Source of the DNA: Spirochaetae bacterium HGW-Spirochaetae-3
GTDB taxonomy: Bacteria > Spirochaetota > Spirochaetia > Treponematales > UBA12059
Assembly (NCBI GenBank): GCA_002839315.1
Contig: PGXV01000004.1
Coordinates: 162,787-226,786 of the forward strand
DNA: 64,000 nucleotides
Direction: 5' to 3'
Shown here: in pieces, positions 28,386 to 44,704 of the stretch
Numbering within the stretch: the first letter of the stretch is position 1
Layout of the letters: the number at the start of each line of letters is the position of its first letter
Position numbers and translations under genes: made by a program
Notes under the pieces: model-generated
Database searches by the model: none
What the model was told of the DNA's origin: nothing
What the model saw: only the letters and a program-made list of their open reading frames with translations

Positions 28386-28450
28386 CTGCGGACCGGAGGC
28401 CGCGACGCGCCGGTTCGGCTCGTTGTGGCCGAAACAGTCAATATCACAGT

Positions 28451-28579
28451 TCTCCGAGCCTCGCTTCCCTACGTTACGCTACGAGCGAACGGGGAGACGA
28501 GGTCACTGGGCTACGGGGAAAACCCCGTAACCTCCCGCCCGATCGCCGGAAACGGCGATCAAGGGCATCGGAAAGGGGA
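28451..28579 (+). promoter_or_regulatory. Moco/Tuco-type riboswitch upstream of tupA
   Basis: The leader matches the Moco RNA motif as I remember it. TCTCC (28451-28455) pairs with GGGGA (28575-28579). Next come CCTCG/CGAGG, then GTCACTGGGC, a TACGGGG-AAAA-CCCCGTA hairpin (28512-28529), CCTCCCG (28531-28537), a GATCGCCG-GAAA-CGGCGATC hairpin (28541-28560), and CATCGGAAAGGGG. The last purine run is also the SD of tupA, 5 nt from the ATG, so ligand binding would hide the ribosome binding site. The gene context (tungstate uptake, cofactor synthesis) agrees. Mo versus W ligand cannot be told by eye. Confidence 0.72.
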
Positions 28580-28583
28580 CACC

Positions 28584-29453
28584 ATGCATCTCTCCACAAA
28601 GCGGACCGCGGTTCGAGCCGCGGCGCTCTGCGCGGCGCTCGTTCTCGGCGCTACCCAGGCCTTCGCGCTAGGTGGCAAGGAAACCGCTCCCGCCACGAGA
28701 CCGACTCCCGCCAACCCGCGCGTCAGGCTGGCCACAACGACCAGCACCGAGAACTCGGGACTCCTGTCGTATATCCTGCCGTTCTTTACCGAGGATACGG
28801 GCTATACCGTCGACGTCGTCGCGGTCGGCACCGGGGCGGCGCTGAAGCTGGGCGAGAACGCCGACGCCGACGTGCTCCTCGTGCACGCGCGGGCCCAGGA
28901 AGACGCGTTCATGGCCGCGGGCCACGGAGCCGATCGGCGCGACGTCATGTACAACGACTTCATCGTGATCGGCCCTAAATCCGACCCGGCCGGCCTCAAG
29001 GGCTCGGCGAGCTCCGCGGTGGCCTTCGAGAGGATCGCCACGGTAGCGGCGCCGTTCGTGTCGCGGGGCGACAAGTCCGGCACCCACGTCAAGGAGCTCG
29101 ACGTCTGGAAGGCCGCCAAGATAACGCCGGCCGGCGCCTGGTACAAGGAAGCCGGACAGGGCATGGAGCAGGTGATCATCATGGCCGACGGGCTCCAGGG
29201 CTACGCGCTGGCCGACCGCGGCACATGGATCGCTGTCAAGGACAAGACGAGCCTCGCCATATGCTACGAGGGCGACGCGGGCCTCTTCAATCCATACGGC
29301 GTCATCACCGTAGCGCCTTCCAAGAATCCCGCTATCAACGCCGAGGGCGCGAAGGCCTTCTCGTCATGGCTGACGAGCGCCCGGGGACAGGGGCTCATCG
29401 CCAGCTACAAGCTCGGCGGCCAGACCCTGTTCTTCCCCAACTACAAGCCCTGA
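28584..29453 (+). CDS. tupA: Tungstate ABC transporter substrate-binding protein TupA
   Basis: 289 residues from ATG at 28584; a long upstream extension is open only because the riboswitch has no stops. The signal peptide is about 1-31 (ALVLGATQAFA). TupA motifs: VRLATTTSTENSGLLSYILPFF near residue 47, VVAVGTGAALKLGENADADVLLVHAR near residue 75, and VMYNDFIVIGPKSDPAG near residue 120. This is the TupA/WtpA-like pattern rather than ModA. It captures tungstate (less often molybdate) in the periplasm for TupBC. Confidence 0.92.
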   Translation: MHLSTKRTAVRAAALCAALVLGATQAFALGGKETAPATRPTPANPRVRLATTTSTENSGLLSYILPFFTEDTGYTVDVVAVGTGAALKLGENADADVLLVHARAQEDAFMAAGHGADRRDVMYNDFIVIGPKSDPAGLKGSASSAVAFERIATVAAPFVSRGDKSGTHVKELDVWKAAKITPAGAWYKEAGQGMEQVIIMADGLQGYALADRGTWIAVKDKTSLAICYEGDAGLFNPYGVITVAPSKNPAINAEGAKAFSSWLTSARGQGLIASYKLGGQTLFFPNYKP

Positions 29454-40190: not shown

Positions 40191-40976
40191 TTATGACCGG
40201 ATACGTTCCGGGTGCGTATATACGATAGGCTCTTCGTCCCCGATGCGACCGACGACCGTGACTCCCGACTCGCGGGCTATCTCGAACGCGGCCGTCGTCG
40301 GTATGCTCCTCGAGACGATGACGGAAACCCTCGCCGCCACCGCCTTCAGTATCATGTCGGCGGCGACCCGGCCGCTCGTCAGGACGCAGGCGCTCGAGAA
40401 ATCGACGCGGTCGACGAAGCCGCGCCCGAGGATCTTGTCTACCGCGTTATGCCTGCCGACGTCCTCGCGGACGACGAAGTACGAGGCGCCGTCGGGGACG
40501 CCCTCCATCGCCGGTCCCGCCGCGGGTCCGGAAGGGACGGCGGCCCCGACCGGCAACGCGAGCGCCGCGCAGTGCATGCCGCCCGTCTGCTTATACAGCG
40601 CAGCCGCCTTGAACATGGCGCGCGACCAGGCCTTGAGCTCGACCATGGAGACGGAGAACCCCGGGGGCACCGTACCGAGCTTCGCGACGCCGGAGGCGAC
40701 CGGCCCCGAGCCGCATCCCGAGGCGACGACCTGTCCCAGCCCGAATCGATCCGCCTCGATGGCGCCCGGCGCGACGACGGTCATGACCCGGAGATCGGCG
40801 CAGGCGCCTATGGTCAGTACGCGCGACGGATCGGAGAGCATGCCGCGGGCGAACAGGTGTCCGGCCGCCAGGTCGTCGAGGTTCAAGGGCGTGCACATCA
40901 GAACCGCTACCCGTTCGCCGTTCGCGATCAGCTCGACGGGAGTCTCGGGCGCGAGCGGACTTGTGGATACGCTCAC
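40191..40976 (-). CDS. fdhD: FdhD-like sulfurtransferase/chaperone for Mo/W enzymes
   Basis: 261 residues from GTG at 40976, which overlaps the upstream stop (GTGA) and has AAGGAG at good spacing. FdhD moves sulfur from IscS to the bis-MGD cofactor of formate dehydrogenase. Typical parts are [80 protein letters not shown] and [13 protein letters not shown]. The usual CGxC is CGSG here (SGCGSG), so only one of the two Cys is kept. No formate dehydrogenase is in the window; the gene sits with AOR. Confidence 0.9.
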
Positions 40977-41500
40977 GGATTCTCCTTCTGGCCGACCTCT
41001 ATCCACTCGGCGAGCCCGTCCGCATGGGCAGCGCCGAGATGAGTCGCCGAATACAGGTACAGGGCCCCGTTCGACGCGGAAGTCGTACGGATATCGGCGT
41101 ATTCCTGGATCGACGCCATGGCGGCGATCGCCGCGTCTATCTCCGGCTGGGTCATCGAGAACGGGGATTCGAGAAACGCGGCGACCGGGGTCGGCCGCGG
41201 GTACGTCTTCGACTCGTCACGCGTCGTATCGGCGATGAGACGGACGGGGTCGCGCTCCGCCAGGCGATACAGATGCTTCGCGTAGGCCTCGGTCATCGAC
41301 CGGTCGCTGAAGTAGTAGCGTTCGGCCGAGCCTCGCATCATCTTGATGTCGGCATCCGCCCCCGCCTCGATAGCCGCGGCGGCGGATTCCGCGTCCGGCG
41401 CTAAAGGAACGAGGCAGGAAGCCGGCGTCAACCGGATCTCGGCCGAATCCGCCCGTATCTTTTCCATCAAGGCCGCTAACGGGCCCGTTTCTTCAGCCAT
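40973..41500 (-). CDS. Small protein of the AOR operon, unknown function
   Basis: 175 residues, soluble, mostly helical, without signal peptide. I do not recognise a family. There are no Cys clusters (a single Cys near residue 29), so it is unlikely to be an electron carrier. GGAGAGACG precedes the ATG. It lies between the AOR gene and fdhD and is coupled to fdhD by a 4-nt overlap. A role as an AOR-specific chaperone or cofactor-insertion factor fits the position but is only inference. Confidence 0.65.
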   Translation of the reverse strand: MAEETGPLAALMEKIRADSAEIRLTPASCLVPLAPDAESAAAAIEAGADADIKMMRGSAERYYFSDRSMTEAYAKHLYRLAERDPVRLIADTTRDESKTYPRPTPVAAFLESPFSMTQPEIDAAIAAMASIQEYADIRTTSASNGALYLYSATHLGAAHADGLAEWIEVGQKENP

Positions 41501-41625: not shown

Positions 41626-43749
41626 TTACGCGGGCAGGAGTCCCTTGGAGGAGAGCTCCTGAGCCACGTCCGACAGGCCGAGCGCCTCGAGCCGCGCCCT
41701 GGTGGGCGAGCCGGTCTTCTCGTCCCAGCCGAATTCCTTGTACACCATGGTGCGGCCTATCTCCATGTCGTCCTGGGTCATCCTGTCGGTACCCGGGGTA
41801 AACTGGGCGATATCCTTGCCGTCCTTGCCCTTCTCGGCGGTGACGACCCATTCGGTCGTCTGGTCGTGGTTCTTGCGCATGTCGGCGGTGCCCATGGCGC
41901 GTACGGTCAACGCCCTGAAGAGCGTGAAGGCGCGCTCGGCGTCGAGGTCGAGGTCTTCCTTCGACTTCGGGATGCCGGTCACGAGCGTGTAGAACTGAGC
42001 CTCGAGCCCCGTATCGCCGCGGTACTTGCGTTCCTTGAGCGGGCTCGTGGTCATCGGCCACATCCAGTTGCACAGCGTCAGCGAGTTGTGGAGGAGGCTC
42101 CTGGAGAGCGACCACTTCACGAACTTCGCCTTGGCGGCGGTCATCGGCTTGTAGTTCTTGACGTCGTCGATAGCGTCGCGGCTGCCCCATTCCTCGGCGG
42201 CGATGTCCTTGAGCATGTCGATGGGCAGGCCCGCCGCGATGAAGTTCATGTGGCTGTGGTTCTGCGCGTCGCGGTTGGAGAAGCAGGAGATGAGCGCTCC
42301 GACCTGACCGCTCGCCTCGTTCGAGTGATGGACGGGGAAACCGAGCTTCGACCATAGCTTGTACTTGTAGTCGCTCCAGTAATCCTCACCGAAGTTCCAG
42401 CGCTTGGCCAGGTAGTACGAGCCGTCGGCGATGTGCCAGAGCTCGCCCTTCTTGTTGGCGACGCGGTCGTAGAAGTCGACGAGGAACGCGGGGTCGCCCT
42501 TCTCGAGCATGTCCCACGGGATCGACGCGTACTCCTCGGCCGGCAGGACCTTCTTGAAGATGCCGTGCTTGTGGGCGTACAGGACGTCGCGGCCGATCTG
42601 GCCGTAGTTGCACCACATGCCGTAGTCGTCGGCGAGCTTGGCTCCGAGGCCCTTGGCGATCATCGATTGCTCGCCGGGCTCCTGGCCGGGAAGGTCGGGC
42701 GTACCGTTGATCATGACGCCGAACGGGCTATAGAACCCCATGCAGGTATTGGCGACGTACGGATCCATGCCGTACCGCTCGAGCTGGGGGATCTTGACCT
42801 GGCTATGGCAGCGGATCGGGCAGTGTGCGCAGCCGCCCATGCGGACCGTGTACTTCTCGGCGACGGGCCCCAGGTCGACGACGGCCTTGTAGGTGCGGAG
42901 CCCGACGGACTGCATGTCCTCGGGATAGCACTCGCCGGTCTCGACGGGCGGATTGGCCGCGCCCCAGTAGAGCCCCTTCTTCGCGGTCCAGCGGCTCGAC
43001 GGGCTGGTGTACTCGGCCCAGGGCTGCGGGTTCTTGGGTACTACGTGCTGGTTGTTAGCGCCGATGAGGCTCATCATGTACTTGTCGAGAGCCATCAGCT
43101 CCTCGGGCTTCGCGGCGATCTTCACCGATCCCGTTCCCTTGACGCCGATCGCCTTGAGGTTCTTGGCTCCGAGGATGCCGCCGTGGCCGCCCGCGGAGTG
43201 CGAGGCTCCGGTGCGTATCACCGACAGGTTGAGCTGGTTCTCTCCGGCCTGGCCGATCGCGGCGACCTGGGCTTCCTTGCCCATCTGGCTGCCGATCATC
43301 GCCATGGTGTCGAAGATACCCTTGCCCCATATCCAGCGGGCGTCCTCGAGCGCGACCTTGCCGTCCTCGATGCGAAGCCACACGGGCTTCGGGCTCTTGC
43401 CCTCGACGACGATCATGTCCCAGCCGGCGTACTTGAGCTCGACCGAGAAGTAACCGCCCATATGCGAGCTGGAAACCGCGTGGAAGGGGTTGGAAGGAAG
43501 GAGGCTGGTGATGTTCGTCCTGCCCGAGCAGGGCACGCCGGTGCCGCAGAACGGGCCGGTGCCGAAGACGATCTTGTTCTCGGGGGCGAAGGGATGGGTG
43601 CCCGCTGGCACCTCGTCCCACATGATCTTCATCGCCATGCCCTCGCCGCCGATGAAATCCTTGTACTTGAGCGTATCGTCCGTGGAAATCTTACCGGTCG
43701 TAAGGTTTACGCGGAGTATCTTGCCCGTATATCCGTAGGTAACTGACAT
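41626..43749 (-). CDS. Aldehyde:ferredoxin oxidoreductase family tungstoenzyme (AOR)
   Basis: 707 residues. AOR enzymes use a tungsten bis-pterin and a [4Fe-4S] cluster to oxidise aldehydes to acids with ferredoxin. The N-terminal domain reads GYTGKILRVNLTTGKIS and FIGGEGMAMKIMW. The cofactor region has SHMGGYFSVELKYAGWD and ASHSAGGHGGILGAKNLKAI. Cluster ligands are Cys307, 310 and 314 (GGCAHCPIRCHS) plus a Cys near residue 500 in ALISCFSNRD. About 100 residues longer than archaeal AOR. The ferredoxin partner upstream suggests the YdhV-YdhY type of pair. SD is GGAAGAGGAG. Confidence 0.93.
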   Translation of the reverse strand: MSVTYGYTGKILRVNLTTGKISTDDTLKYKDFIGGEGMAMKIMWDEVPAGTHPFAPENKIVFGTGPFCGTGVPCSGRTNITSLLPSNPFHAVSSSHMGGYFSVELKYAGWDMIVVEGKSPKPVWLRIEDGKVALEDARWIWGKGIFDTMAMIGSQMGKEAQVAAIGQAGENQLNLSVIRTGASHSAGGHGGILGAKNLKAIGVKGTGSVKIAAKPEELMALDKYMMSLIGANNQHVVPKNPQPWAEYTSPSSRWTAKKGLYWGAANPPVETGECYPEDMQSVGLRTYKAVVDLGPVAEKYTVRMGGCAHCPIRCHSQVKIPQLERYGMDPYVANTCMGFYSPFGVMINGTPDLPGQEPGEQSMIAKGLGAKLADDYGMWCNYGQIGRDVLYAHKHGIFKKVLPAEEYASIPWDMLEKGDPAFLVDFYDRVANKKGELWHIADGSYYLAKRWNFGEDYWSDYKYKLWSKLGFPVHHSNEASGQVGALISCFSNRDAQNHSHMNFIAAGLPIDMLKDIAAEEWGSRDAIDDVKNYKPMTAAKAKFVKWSLSRSLLHNSLTLCNWMWPMTTSPLKERKYRGDTGLEAQFYTLVTGIPKSKEDLDLDAERAFTLFRALTVRAMGTADMRKNHDQTTEWVVTAEKGKDGKDIAQFTPGTDRMTQDDMEIGRTMVYKEFGWDEKTGSPTRARLEALGLSDVAQELSSKGLLPA

Positions 43750-43767: not shown

Positions 43768-44469
43768 TTACGCGGTCGCGCCGCTGACGGCGTCGGCCGT
43801 TCCGCCCGTACCGAACAGCAACGCCTCGGCCTCCGCCCATGGGTAGAATTTGATAGCGCCCGTCGGACAATTCTTGACGCAGTTGGGGTCGCCGCCGCAC
43901 AGGAGGCACTTGGTTGACTTCTCGGTCTCGGGGTCGACGGTCGCTATGCCCCAGGGGCAGGCTCGCTGGCAGGCGCCGCAGCCGACGCACTTTCGCGCGT
44001 CGACGACGCGGGCTCCGGTCGTCTTGTCGGCGGAGATGGCCCCGACGGGGCAGGCCTCGCCGCAGGCCGGGTGCGAGCACTGCCTGCAGGTCTCGCCGAC
44101 GACGCGGAAGTTACCCAGCTGGCCGTCGGCCCTGGCGTACGCGGCGGAGACGCCGGCTACGCCGTAGTTGAGGTTCCTGGATACCTTGATGCGGGAAATG
44201 TACGACGAACCCTTGCCGTCGTTTCGTACGGTACACGCGGTCTCGCAGCGCCGGCAGCCGACGCAACGGCTGGGATCGTGAACGATCGCGCCGGACGAGG
44301 TCGCCCATACCTTTACCTTCTTACCGTCTCTCGTGTCGAAGCTGACGCAGCCGAACGCGGCCGCGGCGAACGCTCCCGCGAGGCCGGCGCCGGCCAATCG
44401 CAAGAATTCGCGCCTCGACGACGTGGAACGCTTCGACTCGCCCTCGGGGGCGCTCTTGGTCGTATCCAT
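43768..44469 (-). CDS. Tat-exported polyferredoxin (YdhY/DmsB-like), partner of AOR
   Basis: 233 residues from ATG at 44469, SD GGAGG. A twin-arginine signal SSRREFLRLAGAGLAGAF is at residues 16-35, and a Cys in AAFGC could be lipid-modified. Four cluster motifs follow: CVGCRRCETAC, CRQCSHPACGEAC, CVGCGACQRAC and CLLCGGDPNCVKNC with CP. This is the DmsB/NrfC-type arrangement. It would carry electrons from AOR toward the membrane. AOR itself has no export signal, so it either rides along with this protein or works on the other side of the membrane. tatA and tatC lie downstream in the operon. Confidence 0.9.
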   Translation of the reverse strand: MDTTKSAPEGESKRSTSSRREFLRLAGAGLAGAFAAAAFGCVSFDTRDGKKVKVWATSSGAIVHDPSRCVGCRRCETACTVRNDGKGSSYISRIKVSRNLNYGVAGVSAAYARADGQLGNFRVVGETCRQCSHPACGEACPVGAISADKTTGARVVDARKCVGCGACQRACPWGIATVDPETEKSTKCLLCGGDPNCVKNCPTGAIKFYPWAEAEALLFGTGGTADAVSGATA

Positions 44470-44482
44470 GATCGAACCTCCA

Positions 44483-44497
44483 TGCGGATAATCCGCA
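44483..44497 (-). promoter_or_regulatory. Hairpin sequestering the ribosome binding site of the polyferredoxin gene
   Basis: On the minus strand TGCGGAT-T-ATCCGCA, flanked by AACCT and AGGTT, which pair around it. The second flank is part of the GGAGGTT ribosome binding site. It lies between the riboswitch and the start codon and may be its expression platform. Confidence 0.5.
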
Positions 44498-44514
44498 AGG
44501 TTGTAATGGTGCGA

Positions 44515-44660
44515 ACTCCTTTCCGATGCCTTTGCGGGGCGGGGAGGCCGAGGACGTTTCCGTCCTGGCCCATAGGCGCCGCCGAAAATTCGGAAAGCGC
44601 CAAGGATCGGCGGCCGTAGCCACGGCGACGCCGCGGCCGTAGGCCGTTCCGATTCGGAGT
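44515..44660 (-). promoter_or_regulatory. Second Moco/Tuco-type riboswitch, upstream of the AOR operon
   Basis: On the minus strand ACTCCGA opens the element, and ACTCC (44656-44660) pairs with GGAGT (44515-44519). Further in are GGGC, an AGGACG-GAAA-CGTCCT hairpin (44551-44566), CCTCCC and CATCGGAAAGGAG. The same blocks, in the same order, form the element at 28451. Here no extra hairpin lies between CCTCCC and the GGAAAGG end. The gene behind it encodes a tungstoenzyme system, in keeping with cofactor sensing. Confidence 0.68.
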
Positions 44661-44704
44661 CAAAATTGAAAAGAACGCTCGCGCCGCCTCGGCGGCACTC
44701 AGCT

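Follow-up and report, generated by a model that had tools for sequence, protein, structure and literature searches.

A Moco/Tuco-family leader RNA with its own Shine-Dalgarno hairpin before a class V aldehyde:ferredoxin oxidoreductase operon of a spirochaete

Introduction

Do two operons of one genome, one for uptake and synthesis and one for an enzyme that uses the resulting cofactor, answer to the same signal, and do they answer in the same direction? This question is raised by a stretch of 64,000 nucleotides from Spirochaetae bacterium HGW-Spirochaetae-3 (contig PGXV01000004.1, positions 162,787 to 226,786), here called the window and numbered from its own first letter. In it, leader RNAs precede both the ydh operon, encoding an aldehyde:ferredoxin oxidoreductase (AOR), and a tup-moa operon. 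An earlier note, made by eye from the DNA, had placed a second riboswitch of the tup-moa class before the AOR operon; it spotted the riboswitch correctly, with exact coordinates and before ydh genes that we assigned by profile matches, and partly misread its structure. We found that the ydh leader belongs to the Moco/Tuco family (molybdenum and tungsten cofactor, respectively), carries the P3 stem and is conserved in relatives, and that the Shine-Dalgarno sequence (SD) behind it lies apart from stem P1, beneath a conserved hairpin. Very probably the element is a riboswitch of this kind that acts on translation of the class V AOR operon through a separate output. The riboswitch family itself has already been described; what differs here is the output end.

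Results and Discussion

The leader of the ydh operon

Using cmscan, a match to the full RF01055 model (Moco/Tuco RNA, positions 1-135) was obtained for 44671-44500 on the minus strand, with 45.3 bits (E 1.3e-7 for the window) against a gathering cut-off of 36 bits. The leader before tup-moa, at 28440-28594 on the plus strand, reached 38.9 bits. The earlier note had staked its second copy on such a covariance-model search, and the search found it. The ydh leader truly belongs to this known family and has the following parts.

44500..44671, minus: Moco/Tuco aptamer RF01055, P3-containing form, model 1-135 (cmscan and genome-wide search)
44656..44661, minus: P1 5' strand GACUCC, whose CUCC is also an anti-SD sequence (RF01055 alignment, duplex tests)
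44606..44653, minus: P2 with a tetraloop-receptor-like CCUACG/UACGG bulge (RF01055 alignment, local fold)
44575..44601, minus: P3 stem GGCGC/GCGCC with inner hairpin CCGAA/UUCGG (RF01055 alignment, local fold; kept in relatives)
44545..44571, minus: P4 hairpin with GAAA tetraloop (RF01055 alignment)
44514..44524, minus: conserved GGAAAGGAGUU holding the P1 3' strand (RF01055 alignment, leader comparison)
44472..44514, minus: SD-sequestering hairpin, candidate expression platform (fold z, pairing in relatives)
44477..44481, minus: SD GGAGG of ydhY, apart from P1 (sequence)

The likeness to the published family (PMC2408646) comprises the full-length match, the P1-P4 core, the GAAA tetraloop, the GGAAAGG 3' core and the placement before molybdenum- or tungsten-cofactor genes, here an AOR operon that uses such a cofactor. 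P3-plus and P3-minus RNAs in one genome, as seen here, have also been reported for some bacteria. The tetraloop, of GNRA type, caps P4 at 44560-44557, and the P2 receptor bulge is a variant of CCUAAG/UAUGG. By the presence of P3 the ydh leader falls in the P3-containing (Moco) subclass and outside the P3-lacking (Tuco) one. The earlier note had described it as repeating the ordered blocks of the tup-moa leader without that leader's extra hairpin. The ordered motif is indeed shared and the hairpin at the P5 position occurs only in the tup leader, but the P3 of the ydh leader, absent from tup, had been overlooked. Given a GC-rich window and a motif initially noticed by eye, chance folding was also weighed; with a covariance-model score above the cut-off, which already refutes it, and with gene-linked conservation and maintained pairing, such a reading has practically no probability left.

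At 44730-44675 (minus), immediately 5' of the aptamer, lies a GCCGCC/GGCGGC hairpin, preceded by a promoter-like TTGACT-17-TATAAA that was read by eye and was not found by a consensus scan.

Conservation and distribution

RF01055 was present in 35 out of the 59 genomes searched, the relatives compared being spirochaete metagenome-assembled genomes; a family-wide search gave no genomes beyond the first 23. Before class V AOR genes the RNA was found in 12 leaders of the first genome set, our own included, and in a thirteenth (G421, L199, 52.6 bits). All 13 of these home-order leaders carry P3. No RF01055 match was found for two class V operons of the home order that are more distant (G047, G423). 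The earlier note would have fallen with a leader not conserved alongside its operon; apart from those two operons without the RNA, leader and operon are conserved together in the home family.

P3 was called in 159 RNAs of the class, among them one probable false positive, by P2-P4 folding, with manual calls for about 20. P3-plus and P3-minus leaders numbered 12 and 4 before class V AORs, 0 and 21 before other AORs, 27 and 28 before tup genes, 0 and 6 before moa/moe, 0 and 10 before aldehyde dehydrogenases (ALDH), and 0 and 28 (29 with G006) before an operon of a solute-binding protein (SBP) and a molybdopterin-domain protein. Two families of the home order account for all 12 P3-plus class V leaders. 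Four P3-minus ones occur in two families in other parts of the class and rule out P3 as a universal mark of class V AOR leaders.

In the P3 arms of the 12 distinct class V leaders 98.3% of the cells were paired, compared with a mean of 55.6% (standard deviation 5.1) in column shuffles, none of 5000 reaching the observed value. The pairs were counted by script on arms chosen as helices by eye, so the result does not amount to a blind test; it shows that pairing was kept while the sequences diverged.

An Rfam scan of 57 class V AOR loci, mostly from other phyla, leaving out the E. coli ydh operon and including some loci with less than 1 kb of upstream sequence, gave no upstream RF01055 match; matches occurred in nine of the loci, every one after the AOR gene. 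For the loci sampled, this rules out a Moco/Tuco leader as a general class V feature across phyla, and within the data examined the association of the RNA with class V operons appears restricted to spirochaetes.

The output end

In the E. coli moaA Moco RNA, which has the same aptamer family and likely translational control, the SD lies in P1. The tup-moa leader shares this arrangement, as its P1 3' strand GGAAAGGGG serves also as SD for the tupA-like gene (ATG 28584), and the GGAAAGGAGUU stretch is likewise the SD itself in most non-AOR leaders. The ydh leader departs from moaA and from the family in this respect: its start codon lies 46 nucleotides downstream of GGAAAGGAG and is served by a dedicated SD, which is covered by a hairpin of its own and forms no part of P1. 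The view in the earlier note that the two RNAs differ in form and in their route to the start codon is thereby borne out. The same contrast is plain in the sequences at large, the SD lying inside P1 in none of the 35 AOR leaders scored and in 72 out of 100 other leaders (Fisher 2e-15, a p-value that overstates independence, given the relatedness of the leaders and the choice of start sites by a scoring rule).

A hairpin at 44497-44483 that pairs with the ribosome-binding site had been proposed as the switch output; it exists as described, extends to 44514-44472 and pairs four of the five SD bases. Its core is UGCGGA/UCCGCA (44497-44483, loop UUA), with outer pairings CC/GG, ACC/GGU and UCG/CGA, and its local fold has -14.3 kcal/mol (z -2.65, 200 dinucleotide shuffles). 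Over six leaders the inner stem had 95.8% of its cells paired and two pairs in which both bases had changed, although the statistical support is modest because 28 of 500 shuffles reached these covariation values. An intrinsic terminator as the output of this leader was ruled out, there being no stem with a T run.

Direction of the response

As we read the locus, the P3-containing riboswitch would control translation of the class V AOR operon: the aptamer would bind the molybdopterin cofactor carrying molybdenum or tungsten, and binding would fix P1 and thereby change the accessibility of the downstream SD. In E. coli moaA the ligand means OFF, the SD being in P1, and the same is expected at tup-moa; this way of shutting the gene is closed to ydh, whose SD lies elsewhere. 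Across the AOR leaders, the P1 5' strand may instead pair with the SD and start region, in which case the ligand would release the SD. The outcome would be an ON switch for the enzyme using the cofactor, as opposed to an OFF switch for the genes making it.

If such competition operates, the P1 5' strand should match its own SD and start region better than those of other leaders. This was found for the 36 AOR leaders (own mean -9.87 vs -8.70 kcal/mol, permutation p 0.001), for all three strand lengths tried on the whole set (all p <0.03) and for the 19 AORs outside class V (permutation p 0.017, shuffling p 0.007), while seven of eight control windows inside genes were not significant and one had p 0.04. 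An ON switch is accordingly the supported prediction for AOR leaders as a group, and is extrapolated from them to the ydh leader.

For the ydh leader itself several points weigh against this direction. The 17 class V leaders taken alone gave no signal (permutation p 0.20, shuffling p 0.43), and the two competing duplexes of the ydh leader are almost equal, at -7.4 and -7.9 kcal/mol. The SD hairpin shares just one base with P1, so both could coexist, and in the thermodynamic fold the SD is mostly paired with P1 taken or not (0.28 and 0.27 unpaired). The leaders are moreover related to each other and their start codons predicted. Global folds of the ligand-free and bound states showed no usable difference in SD accessibility and did not settle the direction. 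We therefore infer an ON response of the ydh leader weakly, giving it an even chance; that its translation escapes ligand control altogether seems improbable.

The opposite sign could also be built from the same parts. Here P1, stabilised by the ligand, would engage the GGAAAGGAG strand, so that AACCUU could form the SD hairpin; in the unbound RNA, CCUU would be captured by AAGG from the P1 3' strand and the SD opened. High cofactor levels would then repress the enzyme. The hairpin that this calls for is real (z -2.65, conserved) and the P1-3'/anti-SD pairing is possible at -6.0 kcal/mol, a value that falls short of the -9.7 kcal/mol of the hairpin arms it would have to open. Several spirochaete tup leaders show, by eye, a clear anti-SD hairpin of like logic (CCUUCAAAA..UUUUGGAGG), and the only family member examined in E. 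coli is an OFF switch (PMC2408646), yet repressing an enzyme amid abundance of the cofactor it uses is less logical. We regard an OFF switch as a possibility somewhat short of even.

P1 and the SD hairpin being nearly separate, the aptamer might also be a relic that no longer switches, with the hairpin alone setting translation. Class V AOR loci of other phyla, in the scan above, do without an upstream Moco RNA, which would suit a relic; however, P1, P2, P3 and P4 are all kept across several genera by compensatory change or conserved sequence, and we consider this reading quite unlikely.

Returning to the ON reading, it bears on the earlier note's suggestion that the two leaders respond in opposite directions. 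This is a good hypothesis and a plausible one in view of the SD-in-P1 split and the P1-5'/SD signal of the AOR group; it stops short of demonstration, since the class V leaders give no such signal and folding is indecisive. The SD-placement split suggests that AOR and other genes may respond to a single cofactor signal with opposite sign. In its full form, with SD position wiring uptake and synthesis OFF and AORs ON with ligand in one cell, P3 not simply marking molybdenum, and the split running class-wide in spirochaetes, we advance this tentatively and at less than even confidence. If it is true, the AOR leaders are, to our knowledge, the first predicted ON members of the family.

P3 and the metal

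The presence or absence of P3 is the published subdivision of the family, and the two forms were associated with Moco and Tuco, respectively (Regulski et al. 2008, PMC2408646). P3-plus RNAs were reported only with genes for molybdopterin/Moco synthesis or Moco enzymes, and P3-minus RNAs mostly from organisms having Tuco genes (PMC2408646). Direct ligand binding and metal discrimination were proposed in the same work (PMC2408646); in the literature searched we found no later direct test of either.

If P3 marks the metal, the P3-plus ydh RNA would sense Moco and the P3-minus tup-moa RNA Tuco, and the two operons would answer different signals. Besides the published correlation, this agrees with the molybdenum preference of E. 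coli YdhV (PMC9103625), which would rescue the rule, and with the home order, where all class V AOR leaders are P3-plus and all other AOR leaders P3-minus. Our genome also encodes two PF00384 proteins, so molybdenum use stays possible. On the other hand, no ModB above the family cut-off (TIGR02141) was found in it while a TupB-like permease is present, and class V enzymes of TupABC hosts have been argued to take tungsten (PMC13328260). In G063 the arrangement is inverse, the class V leader being P3-minus and the tup leader P3-plus, and two P3-minus RNAs precede genes that by eye resemble molybdenum hydroxylases (xanthine dehydrogenase family; L115, G101:C10:339769, and L154, G059:C1:8055), counter to P3-minus meaning tungsten. 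That P3 marks the metal we regard as a possibility, likewise somewhat short of even.

The 2008 rule is thus neither confirmed nor refuted, and in this clade it is under strain; a P3-plus RNA ahead of this AOR is an unusual combination, not the shape that the rule predicts for such an enzyme. The earlier note's idea that both operons answer one signal is not established, as their RNAs fall on opposite sides of the P3 divide (PMC2408646). A P3-plus RNA on an AOR together with a P3-minus RNA on tungstate-type uptake in one genome, and the inverse in G063, offers a clean two-reporter test, and such a pair makes the open question of metal specificity testable.

Genes of the ydh operon

Behind the leader the operon reads ydhY-ydhV-ydhW-fdhD-tatA-tatC, the last two named from sequence.

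43768..44469, minus: ydhY-like ferredoxin subunit with Tat (twin-arginine translocation) signal and 4Fe-4S clusters, ATG 44469 (NCBIfam PRK09898 4e-62, 209.4 bits vs cut-off 213)
41626..43749, minus: YdhV-type (class V) AOR (PRK09849 1077.7 bits vs cut-off 868; PF02730, PF01314)
40973..41500, minus: YdhW-like protein (NCBIfam PRK09947 1e-44, under cut-off)
40191..41006, minus: FdhD sulfurtransferase (TIGR00129 above cut-off; PF02634)

The PRK09849 match, above its cut-off, assigns the AOR to class V WOR (YdhV type). The operon resembles that of E. coli YdhV, a class V WOR (PMC9103625, PMC13328260), in its YdhY, YdhV and YdhW homologs, and differs in additionally having fdhD-tatA-tatC and the Moco/Tuco RNA.

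The sister leader and other family members

28440..28594, plus: sister Moco/Tuco RNA, P3-lacking (cmscan 38.9 bits, above gathering score)
28541-28560, plus: hairpin insert at the P5 position, not in the ydh leader (RF01055 alignment)

Downstream of the sister leader come genes for a TupA-like protein (NF041772 9e-69, 231.8 bits vs cut-off 400) and, beside it, a TupB-like permease; moe/moa genes, identified by their sequence, follow. Both Tup matches have strong E-values yet stay under NCBI's curated cut-offs. Among other leaders, three before tup genes (L123, L152, L157) and one before an ALDH gene (L178) have a distinct platform, in which a CCUUCAAAA..UUUUGGAGG hairpin buries the SD and a competing arm (CUUUC or UUUUCUGCC) faces GGAAAG of P1, resembling a classic translational OFF switch. 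Two tup leaders with low-scoring matches (L059, G014:C21; L069, G021:C502) seem to have a missing or very short P2.

A third RF01055 copy of the genome, on another contig (G000:C17:239676-239815, L033), precedes an NAD-type ALDH, L-glutamate gamma-semialdehyde dehydrogenase (TIGR01236, 752 bits vs 614). Nine further leaders are alike, i.e. P3-minus RNAs before NAD-type ALDH genes (TIGR01236 checked for the copy in our genome). In nine of the ten the SD is part of P1, and for these the cofactor is predicted to turn expression off. If so, the arrangement would be like riboswitch control of a stand-in enzyme that works without the cofactor. Cobalamin riboswitches control cofactor-independent isozymes such as metE, and the shared logic, an analogy for the third copy only, is one cofactor RNA class on both cofactor genes and alternatives to cofactor-dependent enzymes.

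P3-minus RNAs also precede genes for a sugar-type ABC (ATP-binding cassette) binding protein, a PF00174 protein (molybdopterin-oxidoreductase domain) and ABC permeases at L039, L040, L048, L049 and about 24 other loci. This SBP/PF00174 operon is uncharacterised; of its 28-29 leaders, 24 of the 25 scored have the SD in P1. Lastly, at L119 (G081:C22), L128 (G163:C215) and L137 (G101:C33) a Moco/Tuco RNA is followed by a tiny ATG open reading frame and a terminator-like hairpin with a T run, after which comes a gene that by eye resembles adenylosuccinate lyase (purB).
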